From Glycomyces harbinensis (lineage in GTDB: Bacteria > Actinomycetota > Actinomycetes > Mycobacteriales > Micromonosporaceae): DNA of 64,000 nt. A program made the translations under genes and the position numbers. The DNA lies in assembly GCF_900101745.1 (NCBI RefSeq), contig NZ_FNAD01000001.1, positions 248,001 to 312,000 of the forward strand, read 5' to 3'. How positions within the stretch are numbered: position 1 is the stretch's first letter; the number at the start of each line of letters is the position of its first letter. Under the pieces are notes generated by a model. That model saw only the letters and a program-made list of their open reading frames with translations, was not told the origin of the DNA and did not search any database. Positions 5,980-13,108 of this stretch are shown in pieces.

Positions 5980-6378
5980 ATGTCCCGTGAGATCAGGATT
6001 CCCGGCCCGGACCACCCGATCGAGGTCCGCCGGAACCCGAATCGCCTCCGCGTGACCGCCAAGGACGGAGGCGAGGTCATCGCCGACACGACCGCCGCCC
6101 TCACCCTCAGCGAGGCCGACTACCCGCCCGTGGACTACCTCCCACTGGCCGACGTGGACCAGAACCTCCTGGCGCGCACGGACAGCCACACCTACTGCCC
6201 CTACAAGGGCGAGGCGTCCTACTACAGCCTCGTCACCGCCGGGAAGGAGATCGCCGACGCGGTGTGGGTCTACGAGCGGCCGCACGCGGCCGTGCCGGAG
6301 ATCGCGGGCCACGTCGCCTTCTACCCGCAGTACGTGGAGACCACCGTCGCCGAGTCCGAACAGGACCGCGGCGACTAG
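5980..6378 (+). CDS. DUF427 domain protein
   Basis: 132 residues from the ATG at 5980, which has GAAGGAGA about 10 bases upstream. The family hallmark is the compact beta fold with HTYCPYKGEASYYSL in the middle and VWVYERP and AFYPQYVE near the end. DUF427 proteins are common in actinobacteria and their biochemical role is not established. Its last four bases overlap the stop of the convergent ROK gene, leaving no room for a terminator. It probably shares a transcript with the polymerase-domain gene upstream, but nothing in the sequence links their functions. Confidence 0.85.
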   Translation: MSREIRIPGPDHPIEVRRNPNRLRVTAKDGGEVIADTTAALTLSEADYPPVDYLPLADVDQNLLARTDSHTYCPYKGEASYYSLVTAGKEIADAVWVYERPHAAVPEIAGHVAFYPQYVETTVAESEQDRGD

Positions 6379-7586
6379 GAGACCGCGGTCCGCAGTTCGG
6401 GGTTCGGGGACTCGAGGAGGTTGCGCAGCACCACGGCCGCGCCGCCGACCGCCGTCGCCTGCGCGACGTCCCCGGCGAGCTCGACCTCCACGGTGTGCAC
6501 GTGCCGCATGAACACCCGCCGGTTGAGCACCACCTGGAGGACGTCCCGGTAGGCCGGCCCGGACTCGGTGAACGCGTGCCCGGCGAGCACGACCCGGCCC
6601 ACGTCGAACATGTTCACCAGCGAGACCGTGGCGATCGCGAGCCGCTGCGCGGAGTCGGCGATGAGCGCGGCCGCCTCGGCGTTCCCCTCGCGCGCGGCGC
6701 GCCCGATGAGGTTGAAGTCGGTGAGCGTGTCGGCGCCCAGGCCCAGCCGGGCCGCGAGCGCCGGGTTCTCAAGGGCCCGTTCGACGACCGGGCGCGGACC
6801 CGCGATCGGGTCGAGGCACCCGCGGTTGCCGCACGGGCACTCCTCGCCGAGCGCGTCGACCGAGATGTGGCCGAGTTCCACGCCGTTCGAGGTCACCCCG
6901 CGATAGGGGTGCCCGTCGAGGATGACGCCGCCGCCGATGCCGCCGGACATGAACACGACCGCGAAGTTCGAGCCCGACCCGCCCTGGGTCTGCACGCCCA
7001 GCCCCGCGGCGGTCGCGTCGTTCTCCAGCGCCACGGGCAGTCCGGTCGCGGCGGCGAGGGTCTCGGCCAGCGGGTACCGGAGCCATTCGGGCGTCGGGTG
7101 GGGCGTGATCACCACGCCCGCTTCGCGGTCCTGGGGCCCGTAGGTGGCGAGCCCGAGGCCGAGCACCTTCTCGCGGGGCACGGCCGCTTCGTCGAGCATC
7201 GAGCGCACCTGCCCGGCGAGGTCGGCGACGACCTCGGCGATCGGCCGCTTGCCCGAGCCGGGCATGTCGTGGCGGACCACGACCCGGCCGGCCAGGTCGA
7301 CCACGACGCCGACCGCCGCGAACTGGTCGAGCTGGACGCCGACCATGTAGCAGGCGTCGGCCCTGATCCCGATGAGCCGCCTGGGGGTCCCGCGGTTCGC
7401 GGGCGCGGTGCCGACCTCGTGGACCAGGCCCAGCGCCGTGAGTTTGCGGACCGCGTGCGTCATCGTGGCCTGCGTCAGGCCGGTGGCGTCGGCCAGCTCG
7501 ACGCGGCTGACGGCCCCGCGCTCGCGGATGATGTCGAGCACCACGGCCAGCGTCGGCAGTCGGGTGTCGGCGCCGAACGAGCGCAA
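6375..7586 (-). CDS. ROK-family transcriptional regulator (copy 1)
   Basis: 403 residues. A winged-helix domain at about 10-75 (VELADATGLTQATMTHAV) is followed by an actin-like ROK domain with the zinc-binding signature CPCGNRGCLDP and a GIGGG phosphate loop. ROK repressors of this type bind a sugar and release operators of sugar genes. The start is TTG at 7586, preceded by GGAG seven bases upstream. It is the third same-strand gene after ROK copy 2 and the GH36 alpha-galactosidase, from which a strong stem-loop separates it. It is similar over its whole length to the ROK protein at 10068-11288. Confidence 0.9.
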   Translation of the reverse strand: MRSFGADTRLPTLAVVLDIIRERGAVSRVELADATGLTQATMTHAVRKLTALGLVHEVGTAPANRGTPRRLIGIRADACYMVGVQLDQFAAVGVVVDLAGRVVVRHDMPGSGKRPIAEVVADLAGQVRSMLDEAAVPREKVLGLGLATYGPQDREAGVVITPHPTPEWLRYPLAETLAAATGLPVALENDATAAGLGVQTQGGSGSNFAVVFMSGGIGGGVILDGHPYRGVTSNGVELGHISVDALGEECPCGNRGCLDPIAGPRPVVERALENPALAARLGLGADTLTDFNLIGRAAREGNAEAAALIADSAQRLAIATVSLVNMFDVGRVVLAGHAFTESGPAYRDVLQVVLNRRVFMRHVHTVEVELAGDVAQATAVGGAAVVLRNLLESPNPELRTAVS

Positions 7587-7703
7587 TGCGGTCTCCTTAC
7601 TCGGGGCGAGCGGGGTCGGTGAACCCCTGGCGGGCAGGGATCACCTTACTGGACGCGCTCGGACCGCGGCCGGGCGAAATCGGCGGCGGCCGCGCACACT
7701 GGC

Positions 7704-7737
7704 GGGGCCGCCCGCCCGTTCCCGGACGGACGGCCCC
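7704..7737 (-). terminator. Stem-loop between alpha-galactosidase and ROK 1
   Basis: Read on the minus strand, a 14-bp stem pairs fully when two G-U wobbles are allowed, around a six-base loop. It lies just past the stop of the GH36 gene. On the plus strand the same positions would be C-A mismatches, so the hairpin is specific to the minus-strand transcript. Confidence 0.6.
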
Positions 7738-7743
7738 GGACCG

Positions 7744-9879
7744 TCAGACCGCGGTCAGGTGCACCAGCATCGCCTGGACCGGCCACAGCACCGGCAGCTG
7801 CAGGCCCGCCTCGGCCAGGACGCGTCCTGAGAGGACCGTCTCACCGCCGTCGAGCCACGCCGGGGTCACCCAGCCCCACCGGGCCGCGCCGATCTCGTCG
7901 CGCACCCGGACGCGGTAGCGCCGCTCGGGATCGAGGCAGTCCAGGCGCAGGCGCTCGGCGAGCGAGTCCTCCAGCGAGGCCACCGTCGCGACGGTGAACA
8001 CCGCCTCGGACCGGTCGGGTGCGACGACGCCGCGCACCCGCAGCGCCGGGTCCAGCACGTCGGGCCGGACCACGGTCCCGGTGTGCAGCAGCCCCCGCAG
8101 CTCCTTGTAGACCGCGGCGAACGCCGTGATCCGCTCGGTCTCCTCGTCGTCGCACGACAGGAGGTCCCATTCGAAGCCCGCCGAGCCCTGGAGCGAGGTC
8201 GCGATCCGGTACGGCAGCGCCGTGGCCCGGCCGGACGAGTGCGCGGGGGAGGGGCCCACGTGCGCGCCGATCAGTTCGGGCGGGAGCACCAGCTCGGTCC
8301 AGCGCTGGATCTCCTGGCGCTCCACCGGGTCGTTGGAGTCCGAGGCCCACACGCGGTCGGTGTGCGCCAGGATGCCCAGGTCGGTGCGGGCGCCGCCCGA
8401 GGAGCACGACTCGATCTCCAGGCCCGGGTGGTCGGACTTGAGCCGCGCGATGAGCCGGTAGGCCGCGAGGGTCTGCTCGTGCGTGCCGGGCGCGCCCGCG
8501 TGCAGCGGCTCGACCAGGTCCCGGTTGTGGTCCCACTTGATGAAGTCGATGCCCAAGGCGCCCACCAGCGCCGACATCTGCGACCTGACGTGCTCGAACG
8601 CGCCCGGGTTCGCCAGGTCCAGCACGTACTGGGTCCGGAACGACAACCCCTCGGGCGCGGGCACCGAAGCCGGGTTGGCGAGCAGCCATTCGGGATGGGC
8701 GCGGGCCAGATCGGAGTCGAGGTTGACCATCTCGGGCTCGAACCACAGCCCGAACTGCATGCCGAGGGAGTGCACGAGTCCGGCCAGCGGTTCGAGCCCC
8801 TTGGGCCAGACCTCGGGGTCCACGGTCCAGTCGCCCAGGCCCGCCTTGTCGTCGCGCCGCAGGTGGAACCAGCCGTCGTCGAGCACGAACCGCTCGACGC
8901 CCACGGCCGCGGCCTTGCGCGCGAGCGCTTCGAGCCGGTCCCCGTCGTGGTCGAAGTAGACCGCCTCCCAGGTGTTGAGCACCAGCGGGCGCGGCGTCTT
9001 CGGATGCTGGGGCCGCGAGCGCATCCAGGTGTGGAACCGCGCGCTGATCCCGTCGAGTCCGTCTGCGGCCCAAGCGAAGTACGCGGTCGGCGTCGCGTAG
9101 GTCCCGCCGGGGGCGAGCCTGATCTCGCCGGGGCGCACCAGCTCTCCGGCGCCGAGCACCGACACGTGCTCGTTGACGCGGTCGACCCGGTGGCGCACGT
9201 CGGCGCTCCAGCCCAGGTGCACCGCCCACACCTCGCCGCCGCGGTTGCGCGGTGCGCCGTTGGAGGCCAGCGTGACCCACGGCGCGTCGTGGCCGCCGCG
9301 GCCCCGGCGCGACTCGCGCACCGTGGTGCCGCGCGGCATCGGCGTCGTCAGCGGCGACTTCTCCCGGACCCAGCGCCCCGCGAACTGGGTGAGGTGGTCG
9401 GCGGTCTTCGGCACCGGCAGGGTCGCCTCCAGCCATGCCACGTCCAGCTCGCCCTCGCCGGTGTTGTCGAGCTCGTGGTCGACCAGCACCAGGCCGCCCT
9501 CGCCGATCGCGATCGCGGTGCGCAGCACCAGACCCGACGCGTCGTCGGTCGCGGTCAGGCGCAGCCGCGCCTCGCCGGCCTCCTCGACGGCCGTCGTCCA
9601 CCTCGGGAAGACCGGCCGGCCCTCGCGGGTGGCGAGCAGTCCCGGCCGCCCCGACCAGCCGTCGGCGTCCTGGGGGACCAGCGGCAGGCGCCAGGCGGCG
9701 TCGAGCGTTCCGGGCGCGCTCTGGCGGCTGGTCGCCCGGTCGAACCCGGCGAGGTCGGCCTCGCCCAGGTCGCCCAGGTCGGCGCCCCAGTGCAGCACCG
9801 ACGGCAGTCCCGCCGCCGGGTGCGCGAGGATCAGCGACACGCCGTCGCGACGCAGCACGGTCCAGTTCCTTGAGTTCAC
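7744..9879 (-). CDS. GH36 alpha-galactosidase (raffinose-type), cytoplasmic
   Basis: 711 residues, typical for full-length GH36: N-terminal beta-supersandwich, a TIM barrel from about residue 295, and a C-terminal beta domain. The catalytic nucleophile is D450 in FIKWDHNR and the acid/base is D514 in WASDSNDPVER; VLDDGWFHLR and GLWFEPEM line the active site, and SCSSGGARTD is the usual conserved loop. There is no signal peptide, so it acts inside the cell on imported alpha-1,6-galactosides such as melibiose, raffinose or galactosylated mannosides. The GTG start at 9879 has AAGGAG upstream. A MITE-like hairpin lies only 41 bases upstream of the start and may carry or disturb its promoter. The two other GH36 proteins in the window belong to a different subgroup. 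Confidence 0.93.
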   Translation of the reverse strand: MNSRNWTVLRRDGVSLILAHPAAGLPSVLHWGADLGDLGEADLAGFDRATSRQSAPGTLDAAWRLPLVPQDADGWSGRPGLLATREGRPVFPRWTTAVEEAGEARLRLTATDDASGLVLRTAIAIGEGGLVLVDHELDNTGEGELDVAWLEATLPVPKTADHLTQFAGRWVREKSPLTTPMPRGTTVRESRRGRGGHDAPWVTLASNGAPRNRGGEVWAVHLGWSADVRHRVDRVNEHVSVLGAGELVRPGEIRLAPGGTYATPTAYFAWAADGLDGISARFHTWMRSRPQHPKTPRPLVLNTWEAVYFDHDGDRLEALARKAAAVGVERFVLDDGWFHLRRDDKAGLGDWTVDPEVWPKGLEPLAGLVHSLGMQFGLWFEPEMVNLDSDLARAHPEWLLANPASVPAPEGLSFRTQYVLDLANPGAFEHVRSQMSALVGALGIDFIKWDHNRDLVEPLHAGAPGTHEQTLAAYRLIARLKSDHPGLEIESCSSGGARTDLGILAHTDRVWASDSNDPVERQEIQRWTELVLPPELIGAHVGPSPAHSSGRATALPYRIATSLQGSAGFEWDLLSCDDEETERITAFAAVYKELRGLLHTGTVVRPDVLDPALRVRGVVAPDRSEAVFTVATVASLEDSLAERLRLDCLDPERRYRVRVRDEIGAARWGWVTPAWLDGGETVLSGRVLAEAGLQLPVLWPVQAMLVHLTAV

Positions 9880-9920
9880 GATGCTCCTTCGTTGGCAGGT
9901 TCAGGCTGTTGTGGGCCCTA

Positions 9921-10082
9921 GGGCCTGTCCCGTGAATCAGAACGGTCGGGGTCCGGCCCATTTGCCCGCTCGCCGCGTTGTCAGTGCCTCTGAATACAAC
10001 ACCGGTATTCGGAGGCACTTCCGCTTTGCGAGCGAACGAATGGACTCGGACCCCGCCTCGCCCTGGTTCACGGGACAGGCCC
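9921..10082. mobile_element. MITE-like element, 162 bp, with terminal inverted repeats
   Basis: The ends GGGCCTGTCCCGTGAA and its reverse complement are perfect 16-bp inverted repeats. They are flanked by TA on both sides (within CTAG), extending the symmetry to 20 bp (9917-9936 and 10067-10086). Imperfect complementarity continues inwards for about 25 bp more. In the centre, 9983-9997 and 10005-10019 form a second stem of about 15 bp with one mismatch. The whole element can fold into one long hairpin and has no room for a transposase. End sequence and TA/CTAG target resemble IS5-type elements of actinobacteria. It interrupts the junction between ROK 2 and the alpha-galactosidase gene. Confidence 0.8.
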
Positions 10083-11288
10083 TAGGCGCGGGGGCTCCCC
10101 GATGTGCATGGTGCGCAGCACGTGCAATGCGCCGCCGACCGCCGCGGCGGAGTCGACGTTGGACGACACGATCACCTTGGGGCGGCTCAGCGCCCGGCTC
10201 AGCGCCCGCCGCTCCAGCTCGGCGGCCACGTGGTCGCGGTACAGCGTCCCGGCGACCACGAACGCCGGCCCGGCGAGCACCACGGTGTCGAGGTCGAACA
10301 GGTTGACCAGGGTGACCGCGGCCTGGCCGATCCAGCGCGCCGACTGCTCCAGGATCGCGGCCGCGTCCCGATCCCCCGCGCGCCACGCCTGCGCGATGCG
10401 GTCGAAATCGGCGAGGGTGCCGTCCGGGCCGCCGCGGACCGCGAAGCGGTCGGCGAGCCCGTCGTCGGCGAGGACCCGCGCGACCACGGCCTGCGGTGCG
10501 GCCTCGGCCTGCGCGCAGCCGCTGCTGCCGCACACGCACGGCTCCCGGCCGCCGGCGAGGGCCACGTGCCCGATCTCGACCGCGTTCGAGGCCCGGCCCC
10601 GGTAGACCTCGCCGTCGACGATCACGCCGCCGCCGATCCCCGAGGCCATGTAGATCAGGCCGAACGTGTCCGTCGGCGGGGACCCGGCCCAGAACTCGCC
10701 GAACGCGGCCGCGCTCGCGTCGTTCTCCAGCAGCACCGGCAGCCCCAGCCGTTCGGCGAGCGTCCCGGTCAGCGGGTACTCGAGCCATTCGGGGCCGGGC
10801 TGGGCCGTCAGCAGCATCCCGCGCTCCAGGTCCTGCGGCCCGTGGGTCACCAGGCCCACGCCCAGGACCCGTTCGCGCGGCACGCCGGCGCGTTCGAGCA
10901 GCGAGTCCACATGCGACGCCAGGGTCCGCACGGTGTCCTCGGGGCCGCGCCCGCCGGTGCCCGGCAGGCTCTCGGCGGCGACCCGGTCGCCGGCGAAGTC
11001 GAGGACCACGATCGTGGTGGTGATCCGGTCGACCTGGACGCCCACGGCGTGCCAGGCGCCGGCGACGAGCTGGAGGAGGCGCCGCGGCTGGCCGCGGCCC
11101 GGTTGCGGGTCGCGGCCGATCTCGCGGACGAGCCCGTCCACGATGAGCGGCCGCACGGCGTTGGTGATGGTGGCGGCCGTCAGCCCGGTCCGCTCGGCGA
11201 GTTCGACGCGGCTGATGGTGCCCTCGGCCCGCAGGAGGTCGAGGACGCGTCGGGCCGCGCCGGCGCGGGACCCGCCCGGATGGCGCAT
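10068..11288 (-). CDS. ROK-family transcriptional regulator (copy 2)
   Basis: 406 residues with an N-terminal winged helix (VELAERTGLTAATITNAV) and a ROK domain carrying CVCGSSGCAQ in the zinc-binding position and SGIGGG. It stands divergently from the oligosaccharide importer operon, with only 140 bp between the starts. Both promoters overlap an AT-rich patch, so it is the likely local regulator of that operon and of the alpha-galactosidase downstream. Its last residues (GPVP) and stop codon are supplied by the inverted repeat of the MITE-like element, so the original C-terminus was probably different. A GGAGG site precedes the start, seven bases from the ATG. Confidence 0.9.
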   Translation of the reverse strand: MRHPGGSRAGAARRVLDLLRAEGTISRVELAERTGLTAATITNAVRPLIVDGLVREIGRDPQPGRGQPRRLLQLVAGAWHAVGVQVDRITTTIVVLDFAGDRVAAESLPGTGGRGPEDTVRTLASHVDSLLERAGVPRERVLGVGLVTHGPQDLERGMLLTAQPGPEWLEYPLTGTLAERLGLPVLLENDASAAAFGEFWAGSPPTDTFGLIYMASGIGGGVIVDGEVYRGRASNAVEIGHVALAGGREPCVCGSSGCAQAEAAPQAVVARVLADDGLADRFAVRGGPDGTLADFDRIAQAWRAGDRDAAAILEQSARWIGQAAVTLVNLFDLDTVVLAGPAFVVAGTLYRDHVAAELERRALSRALSRPKVIVSSNVDSAAAVGGALHVLRTMHIGEPPRLGPVP

Positions 11289-11316
11289 CTGGCGGCCTCC
11301 TTCGGAAGTTCATCGG

Positions 11317-11354
11317 ATCTTATTCTTGACACCTTAAATTTAACAGGTTAATAA
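11317..11354 (+). promoter_or_regulatory. Divergent promoters of the importer operon and ROK 2
   Basis: On the plus strand TTGACA (11326-11331), exactly 17 bases, then TAATAA (11349-11354): the best sigma-70 match in the window. The spacer is AT-rich and contains TTAAATTTAA flanked by CCT and AGG, a likely operator. On the minus strand TAAGAT (11317-11322) with TGTTAA 17 bases upstream could serve ROK 2. The two promoters interlock, so one bound repressor could control both directions. Confidence 0.7.
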
Positions 11355-11428
11355 TTGGCCGGACGCCCAAGCGGGCGTACCCCCTCCAGTTCCGCGGGCG
11401 AAGGCGCCCCGGACCCGAAAGGACGACG

Positions 11429-13108
11429 ATGTCACCCAACAACGGACTGCGGCGCCGCGCCGCGGCCGCCCTCGCGGGCACGGCCGTGCTCGGCCTCGCG
11501 CTCACCGGCTGCTCCGGAGGCTCCGCCGACAGTTCGGCGGACGCCTCCACCCTGATCGCCTACACCGGCCAGGCGGGCGACTACCAGATCAACTTCAACC
11601 CCTTCTCTCCCACGAAGATCGGCGGCCTCGGCACGATCTTCGAACCGCTCTTCTTCCACAACAAGGCCCAGGTCTCCGACCCGTTGCCGCTGCTGGGCAC
11701 CGAGCAGGCGTGGAACGAGGACGGCACCGAGCTCTCCGTGACCCTCCGCGAGGACGTCCAGTGGAGCGACGAGGAGGCGTTCACCGCCGACGACGTGGTC
11801 TTCACCTTCGACCTCATCAAGGCCAACCCCTCGATCAACAACGCCGGCTGGGACGGCGAGATCACCGCCGTCGACGACACCCACGTCGTCTTCGCCTTCG
11901 ACGCGCCCGCGTTCGTCAAGGGCCCCGACCTGCTCAGCATCCCGATCGTGCCCGAGCACCTCTGGAAGGACGTCAACCCCGTCGAAGACGTCATGGAGGA
12001 GCCTGTCGGCACCGGCGCCTACACGCTGGACGAGTTCAAGCCGCAGGCGTTCACCCTCAAGGCCAACCCCGACTACTGGGGTGGCGAGCCCGAAGTGACG
12101 CTCATCCGCTTCCTGTCGCTCTCGGGCAACCAGGCCGGCGCCGACGCGATCGCCGCGGGCACCATCGACTGGCAGACCGGCCCCATCCCGGACATCCTGA
12201 ACACGAACGAGAACTTCCCGAACTACGACGCGTACACGCAGGCGCAGAACCAGATGGTCCTGGCCTCGTGCTCCAGCGCCGACCTGGGATGCGAAGGCCC
12301 CCAGACCGACCCGGCCGTGCGCCAGGCGCTCTACTACGCGATGGACCGCACCCAGATCAACAGCCTCGCGTTCATGGACACCGCCAGCGACGAGTCGCCG
12401 ACGTTCGCCCTGACGCCGAGCCAGGACGAGTTCATCTCGGCCGACATCGCCGAGAAGACCGTCCCGATGGAGCCCGACCCGGAGAAGGCCGGCCAGATCC
12501 TCGAGGAGGCCGGCTGGACCAAGGGCGACGACGGCTTCTACGCCAAGGACGGCGAGACCCTCTCGGTGACCGTCGAGATCGTCACCGGCTGGACCGACTA
12601 CATCACCGCCGTCGACACGATCGCCTCCCAGGCGGCCACCGCCGGCATCGAGGTCAAGGCCGCGCAGTCGTCGTGGAACGAGTGGACCGAGAAGAAGGGC
12701 TCGGGCAGCTTCGAGCTCATCATCGACTCGCTCTACCAGGGCCCGACGGCCGACCCCTACTACCTGTACAACTACTTCTTCGACTCCAGCTCGGGCGCTG
12801 AGGTCGGCGGTTCGGCGGGCCTGAACTACTCCCGCTACGACAACCCGGTGGTCGACGACGCGGTGAACGCGCTGGCGAACCTCCCCCTGGACGACGCCGC
12901 GGCCCGCCAGCCGTACTTCGACACGATCCAGGCCGAGATCGTCCGCGACATGCCGTACATCCCGATCCTGACCGGCGGCACGACGAGCGTGTGGAACACC
13001 GCGAAGTTCTCCGGGTGGCCCTCCGACGACGACCTGTACGCCTTCCCGGCGGTCTGGTCGGCGCTGGACGCCGCCGAGATCTTCAAGCACCTCGAGCCGC
13101 AGGGCTGA
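11429..13108 (+). CDS. Oligopeptide-type (family 5) solute-binding lipoprotein, probably for mannan/galactomannan oligosaccharides
   Basis: 559 residues. A lipoprotein signal with lipobox ALTGCS ends near residue 30. The mature part has the family 5 architecture: an N-terminal lobe with INFNPFSP, the characteristic WSDEEAFTADDVVFTFDLIK segment, and a C-terminal lobe with YYLYNYFFDS. Family 5 proteins bind peptides, but a branch binds oligosaccharides. The operon context (beta-mannosidase, alpha-galactosidase, mannose-isomerase-like protein, sugar kinase) argues for a sugar here. It starts the operon downstream of a near-consensus promoter, with GAAAGGA before the ATG. The ligand assignment is inference from context only. 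Confidence 0.88.
   Translation: MSPNNGLRRRAAAALAGTAVLGLALTGCSGGSADSSADASTLIAYTGQAGDYQINFNPFSPTKIGGLGTIFEPLFFHNKAQVSDPLPLLGTEQAWNEDGTELSVTLREDVQWSDEEAFTADDVVFTFDLIKANPSINNAGWDGEITAVDDTHVVFAFDAPAFVKGPDLLSIPIVPEHLWKDVNPVEDVMEEPVGTGAYTLDEFKPQAFTLKANPDYWGGEPEVTLIRFLSLSGNQAGADAIAAGTIDWQTGPIPDILNTNENFPNYDAYTQAQNQMVLASCSSADLGCEGPQTDPAVRQALYYAMDRTQINSLAFMDTASDESPTFALTPSQDEFISADIAEKTVPMEPDPEKAGQILEEAGWTKGDDGFYAKDGETLSVTVEIVTGWTDYITAVDTIASQAATAGIEVKAAQSSWNEWTEKKGSGSFELIIDSLYQGPTADPYYLYNYFFDSSSGAEVGGSAGLNYSRYDNPVVDDAVNALANLPLDDAAARQPYFDTIQAEIVRDMPYIPILTGGTTSVWNTAKFSGWPSDDDLYAFPAVWSALDAAEIFKHLEPQG

Follow-up and report, generated by a model that had tools for sequence, protein, structure and literature searches.

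Miniature inverted-repeat transposable elements (MITEs) are usually regarded as dead deletion products that are defined by their ends. The element analyzed here lies in a 64,000-nucleotide stretch of the Glycomyces harbinensis genome (contig NZ_FNAD01000001.1, positions 248,001 to 312,000; hereafter the window, with position 1 as its first letter), and resembles the MITEs moved by IS5-family transposases in being short, bounded by terminal inverted repeats (TIRs), inserted at a TA target, present in multiple copies and matched by an insertion sequence (IS) elsewhere. It differs from them in that its family has ends that vary within one genome, a structured core that is kept across classes and a length near 165 bp, and in that the core is absent from the 16 IS loci examined. 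Another system that invites comparison is the integron attC site. Like the present family, it is a hairpin of imperfect pairing in which unpaired bases are conserved, the terminal stem varies and one strand is favored, whereas the TIRs and TA duplications of the present family indicate a DDE transposase and its loop is alike within lineages; no attC boxes were seen by eye in the element family. Enterobacterial repeats of the RU/ERIC type are mobile sequences of 100-170 bp with structure motifs (PMC2229807, PMC2759123); compared by description only, they occur in other hosts, and the portions of these sources consulted mention neither a strand-specific fold shared across phyla nor exchangeable ends. 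Coxiella MITEs have been connected to small RNA evolution (PMC5896051) and, as far as the part of that source at hand describes them, are likewise a bacterial MITE family discussed together with small RNAs, but in another phylum. Judged from titles and abstract openings, the literature retrieved by topic and by core strings does not describe the present family.

The element occupies positions 9921-10082 (162 bp, without assigned strand) and is bounded by perfect 16-bp terminal repeats at 9921-9936 (plus strand) and 10067-10082 (minus strand), with the two TA copies of the target duplication at 9919-9920 (inside CCTAG) and 10083-10084 (inside CTAGG). Its length, its ends and its TA (CTAG) flanks are, on direct reading, exactly those given in a preliminary description made from the sequence alone. 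That description had also pointed to imperfect complementarity along the element and to a second, central stem, both of which are borne out: the 24-nt arms, flanks included, are 96% complementary, and a stem-loop at 9984-10018 (no strand assigned) consists of a 14-bp stem (9984-9997 with 10005-10018) closed by the loop AACACCG (9998-10004). The fold of 170 bases reaches -125.3 kcal/mol, compared to -62.6 +/- 4.1 kcal/mol in 200 shuffles, none of which reached that value, and the fold energy of the element region is therefore 15 standard deviations under the shuffles. A conserved core at 9967-10035 (plus strand) was matched by the covariance model R1 with 80.8 bits (E 1.2e-20), and the minus strand of this core folds better. 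Considering that the element has TIRs and a TA target duplication, is multi-copy, is only 162 bp long without a transposase gene, folds on itself and is absent from relatives, its identity as a non-autonomous IS5-type element, that is, a MITE, is secure. Flanks of TA or TNA are seen again at other copies, some of them mutated.

The insertion lies between a GH36 alpha-galactosidase gene (7744-9879, minus strand), whose start codon is 41 nt from the element, exactly the distance reported earlier, and a gene for an ROK-family regulator (ROK 2, 10068-11288, minus strand); Pfam models recognized an ROK protein with a winged-helix domain and a GH36/melibiase domain, respectively. The minus-strand ROK frame ends in ...PPR-CTA-GGG-CCT-GTC-CCG-TGA, so that the right repeat supplies the last four residues (GPVP) and the stop codon, as the preliminary description had stated. 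The junction was compared across 17 orthologue loci, of which 10 had GH36 in the fetched stretch and seven did not. None of these 10 readable junctions carries the element, which is the outcome of the empty-site comparison that had been proposed for it, and because of this absence the insertion between ROK and GH36 is, as far as the compared junctions tell, specific to this lineage. The idea that the element separates two otherwise coupled genes also held up, since the pair is normally tight: the ROK and GH36 open reading frames (ORFs) overlap by 4 nt in eight of the 10 relatives and have gaps of 31 and 100 nt in the other two, compared to 188 nt in the window. The claim that the end of the ROK gene is rewritten is true as far as it goes, but the effect on the protein is small. 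When the element and one TA are removed by eye, ROK ends in ...EPPRLGPTTA*, 21 nt before the GH36 start, and the C-terminal tail of ROK is different in each of the 10 relatives anyway. In the wider neighborhood (6375-13108 of the window), GH36 is flanked by two ROK regulators, with a solute-binding-protein-like ORF divergent from ROK 2; a second ROK match also lies a few kb away in several relatives.

A search of the genome and its relatives, as the preliminary description had suggested, revealed a widely distributed family. By BLASTN, nine places with at least 80% identity and one 35-nt fragment were found in the own genome, and matches were present in 23 of 41 genomes, namely the own genome, 20 of the 21 other Glycomyces and two more. 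Model R1 matched 21 of 22 Glycomyces genomes (10 matches in the own genome, nine of them listed), 25 of the 59 genomes searched in a second genus and, across the phylum, 11 of 296 genomes, six of which, the own one included, look convincing. Four IMG/VR records (L333, L339, L342 and L448) were matched as well, with E-values of 6.5e-10 to 7.4e-7. In these virus-labelled contigs the core-bearing hairpins have unlike ends, and one of them (L339, IMG/VR 2886804071) also holds phage-like structural genes according to our own reading of its ORFs; most other pattern hits in viral contigs look like coding sequence matched by chance. No match to a Rhodococcus copy was found among plasmid records. A pattern for the center of the element, in which 21 letters are fixed, recovered at least 115 stretches from a collection of species genomes. 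Among the matches listed are Glycomyces, Micromonospora, Stackebrandtia, Actinocatenispora, Longispora, Rugosimonospora, Pseudonocardia, Rhodococcus, Nocardia and relatives, the clostridial genus Anaerovirgula and a few false hits; L158, L163, L196 and L244 were left out as false, either by eye or for having no fitting ends. In Clostridia, 12 of 391 genomes had pattern hits and only some of these resemble elements, most clearly in G334 and G518; the AT-rich G518 has three elements of approximately 160 bp that keep CGTTGTCGTC...TCCGCCTTGC, letters in part required by the search pattern. As delimited by these searches, a core of approximately 68 nt recurs in many Actinobacteria and in some Clostridia.

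The ends of this family are far less uniform than its center. Glycomyces copies have positions 36-147 in common at roughly 77-88%, and their ends are of several types. In a first set of 91 elements, drawn from the matches listed and passing a 150-180 bp length filter, 89 measure 160-170 bp, and the distance from the core to either end is 56-62 nt in 89. Looser limits gave a second set of 134 elements, of which 118 measure 160-170 bp and 14 exceed 180 bp; the constancy of length is partly set by the filters used for both sets. There are 88 different end 12-mers among the 134 elements, a few of them merely out of register. Ends and flanks divide into TA types and TNA types, which would correspond to IS5 subgroups (IS427-like and IS1031-like). 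On this comparison, the ends are the variable part of the family and the structured core is its constant part. Some copies deviate in their overall build: L115, L117-L119, L121 and L122 (genomes G016, G015, G004 and G012) are variants of approximately 198-253 bp with an extra CGGCGAAGCTTGCGAGCC-like stretch in one arm, L117 has an insert in the second arm too, and the core model still matches all of these longer variants. Two copies of approximately 58 bp (L123) and 52 bp (L125) are internal deletions, collapsed end to end into near-perfect palindromes. Two half elements in G017 (L127 and L128) are cut short at one shared position, the 3' foot of the central hairpin, where unlike sequence takes over.

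Candidate helper transposases were sought through the ends. A 20-base end pattern, with one mismatch allowed, was found in 12 of 41 genomes. TAGGGCYTGTCCTGTGAAT ends bound a 910-bp IS in G018 and ISs of 966 and 969 bp in G036 (a sister species and another family of the order), whose ends are the same 19-20 bp as those of the element but for a base or two, so that full-length autonomous relatives with matching ends, for which a search had been advised, do exist. The ORFs of the G018 IS and of one G036 copy match DUF4096 or DDE_Tnp_1, and all three ORFs tested exceed the 110-bit cut-off of the NCBIfam IS5-family model NF033580 (125.3 and 162.6 bits for the two ORFs of one G036 copy; 157.6 bits for G018), which places the helper candidates in the IS5 family. 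The preliminary description had attributed IS5-type ends to the element and its movement to a transposase elsewhere in the same genome. The former assignment stands; as for the latter, the own genome has a broken IS copy with the same ends (contig C17), and an intact IS having exactly these ends did not turn up among the 35 contigs of its assembly. Intact-looking IS5-type ISs with other ends, TAGGCAGCGTYTGAGAAC, are present there, including three copies of a 959-bp IS (contigs C6, C30 and C33 of G000; L415, L403 and L404); since these copies lie at or near contig ends, assembly gaps may hide further ISs. Among 40 DUF4096 regions fetched, 22 had a candidate end pair and nine, the ones used further, had a pair matching in at least 16 of 18 bases. 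G017 repeatedly shows a second end type, TAGGGCGTGTTTGGGAAT; several of the places there are MITE copies, and an IS with precisely this end was not observed in G017, the closest IS end, one base different, being in G015.

The core was then considered as a structure. Among 31 cores picked for diversity (less than 88% alike), 30 were analyzed, L203 being excluded for its Ns. Both sides change in 18 of the 23 core pairs, 85.5% of the core cells are paired compared to 65.5% in shuffles, and the covariation score is 0.458, compared to 0.142 when shuffled and at most 0.106 when slid. Invariance at the 21 letters fixed by the collection pattern proves nothing, part of the invariance being built in. 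As aligned, the core shows strong compensatory change. Two possible identities of the core were rejected: Rfam gave no match at E-values up to 0.1 for five loci on both strands, which speaks against a known Rfam family, and the 16 IS loci examined, several copies of one IS among them, gave no match to the core model, which speaks against a part of the helper IS.

The two strands of the element do not fold equally well. The top strand is here the one reading GTTGTC...TCCGCC, and the bottom strand corresponds to the minus strand of the window (GCAAGGCGGAGGA-hairpin-GACGACAACGC). In the ends of the top strand, non-Watson-Crick cells are A.C in 113 cases and G.T in 21, or 60 and 20 if repeats of a position and pair type within a group are counted only once; Glycomyces copies alone have 13 and 10 distinct changes, respectively. 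An A.C cell on the top strand is G.T or G.U on the bottom strand, and therefore the bottom strand pairs where the top strand cannot. RNAfold gave a more stable bottom strand in 117 of 119 elements. The bias is inherited within a lineage and only arm clusters count as cases, and for this reason 148 elements were reduced to 18 arm clusters; the bottom strand is better in 16 of these (p = 0.0013), both for whole elements and for arms folded on their own, with a gain of about 8-29 kcal/mol and more G-U pairs. The biggest cluster comprises 100 of the 148 elements (98 of them bottom-better), and the two opposing clusters (L467 and L458) are doubtful clostridial pattern hits. The picture is less regular in the central stem, where A.C and G.T number 19 and 15 over 10 bp, and 45 and 18 over 12 bp; the latter excess is driven by one genus and the groups disagree, with Rhodococcus and its kin reversed (1 and 7). 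In Micromonosporaceae arms, a symmetric alignment has little excess (116 vs 94) and the bottom strand folds better in 27 of 27; in the window copy the strand difference is small (-120.2 and -124.2 kcal/mol). Because the same strand folds better, with more G-U pairs, in 16 of the 18 arm clusters, one single strand, either RNA or single-stranded DNA (ssDNA), seems to be under selection for its fold.

The positions of the copies were read against genes called with a simple codon-based gene finder made for this analysis. Of the 91 elements in the first set, 84 could be placed, 29 between convergent, 43 between tandem and 12 between divergent genes; convergent gaps make up 15,627 of the 110,255 bases of intergenic DNA in these loci, counting the gaps that hold the elements. 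Neighboring 3' ends lie within 10 nt of an element in 55 of 101 cases and overlap it by 2-3 nt, which amounts to the stop codon, in 41 of 101, whereas neighboring 5' ends are that close in five of 67. TA-containing targets in a GC-rich genome are often TAG, TGA or TAA stop codons, which would explain a harmless insertion at gene ends. The strand of the core has no bias relative to the neighboring genes (25 and 18 among tandem positions; 64 of 112, p = 0.16), and its orientation to neighbors in Micromonosporaceae is opposite to that in the remaining groups. Orientation relative to replication was followed in one genus, using six genomes that are complete or nearly so, where 45 of the 61 copies listed follow the replichore (p = 0.0003, shared ancestry of the insertions being included in the count), with 14/16, 9/9, 5/5, 4/9, 6/11 and 7/11 copies per genome. 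The bias is present in G326 (L305-L332), G759 and G744, and not in G737 or G748. Origins were set by a DnaA motif found where the record begins (G326, G759, G744 and G737) or by a few GC-skew samples (G748 and G754), and the count leaves out one G748 copy, G761 and G731 (seven and three copies listed; no DnaA motif in the first 3 kb) and G774 and G768 (one copy listed each). Where such a bias exists, it is the leading-strand template that folds better. Local GC skew was discarded as a sign of replication direction in Glycomyces, where third-position skew seemed to track gene orientation.

From these comparisons we consider it probable that the element is a trans-mobilized, IS5-type MITE belonging to a family with changing ends and a core fold selected on one strand. 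An IS5-family DDE transposase would recognize the ends of the miniature transposon and move it in trans into TA targets, often CTAG or TTAG, which in GC-rich genomes would often be stop codons, leaving copies at gene ends; in the window, as the comparison of junctions shows, the target was a CTAG close to where the ROK gene ends, and the insertion widened the gap to GH36. By keeping approximately 165 bp and a structured core while the ends change, the family could be moved by different resident transposases, and the selected property would be the fold of one strand, which uses G-U or G-T pairs impossible for the other strand. A simpler account, according to which the element is an ordinary MITE, an internal-deletion derivative of an IS5 element that functions only through its ends and whose palindromic body arose as a by-product, would have textbook TIRs, a TA target, multiple copies and a matching IS in its favor, along with the internally collapsed copies of 52-58 bp. 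It is nevertheless unlikely, considering that the core model matches none of the IS loci examined, that the core sequence and its covarying pairs are kept in elements ranging from Actinobacteria to Clostridia whose ends and arms differ, and that the strand-specific pairing of the arm clusters is unexpected of a passive palindrome. Least probable of all is the proposal in the preliminary description that the element may terminate or initiate transcription in the ROK-GH36 gap. Although its position separates two otherwise coupled genes and a transcript of it would be very stable (-124.1 kcal/mol), neither a sigma-70-like promoter nor a terminator-like site (a GC stem followed by a T-run) is found within 9800-10200 of the window, and the copies have no fixed orientation relative to genes.

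Selection on a single-strand fold is thus well supported by the comparison, and the question becomes what form the folded strand would take. The most likely carrier is RNA from the minus strand, with ssDNA as its rival. On the latter reading, the folded strand acts as ssDNA at replication or transposition, similar to integron attC sites, whose folded bottom strand is what recombines, and orientation along the replichore as well as the fact that G.T is the best-tolerated mismatch in DNA too would speak for it. However, three of the six genomes have only 4/9, 6/11 and 7/11 copies so oriented, the better-folding strand of the biased genomes is the leading-strand template and hence less often single-stranded, DDE transposition requires no ssDNA, and no link to an attC-type recombinase is among the observations; we regard this reading as rather unlikely, if somewhat less so than a passive by-product. 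RNA is somewhat favored over ssDNA as the probable working form because of the wobble pairing and the orientation relative to replication. Such an RNA would probably not be simple read-through from the host, against which the lack of bias relative to neighboring genes speaks. That the folded strand aids the persistence of the element itself rather than a host function is our guess. More tentatively still than the reading as a whole, and with some doubt, the family might consist of SINE-like bacterial satellites of approximately 165 bases, which would combine a strand-specific RNA core with changing ends, range from Actinobacteria to Clostridia and be moved by resident IS-type transposases.

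For the organism, the insertion accounts for a lineage-specific split of the tight ROK-GH36 gene pair in the window. For the family, it is the ends that would be disposable and the folded core that would be heritable, a core that persists across phylum-scale distances and clearly prefers one strand. What such a passive-looking repeat is selected for, and how satellites may switch their helper transposases, become testable, and it may be asked whether a single mobile RNA family underlies many of the hairpin repeats that GC-rich bacteria carry at gene ends.
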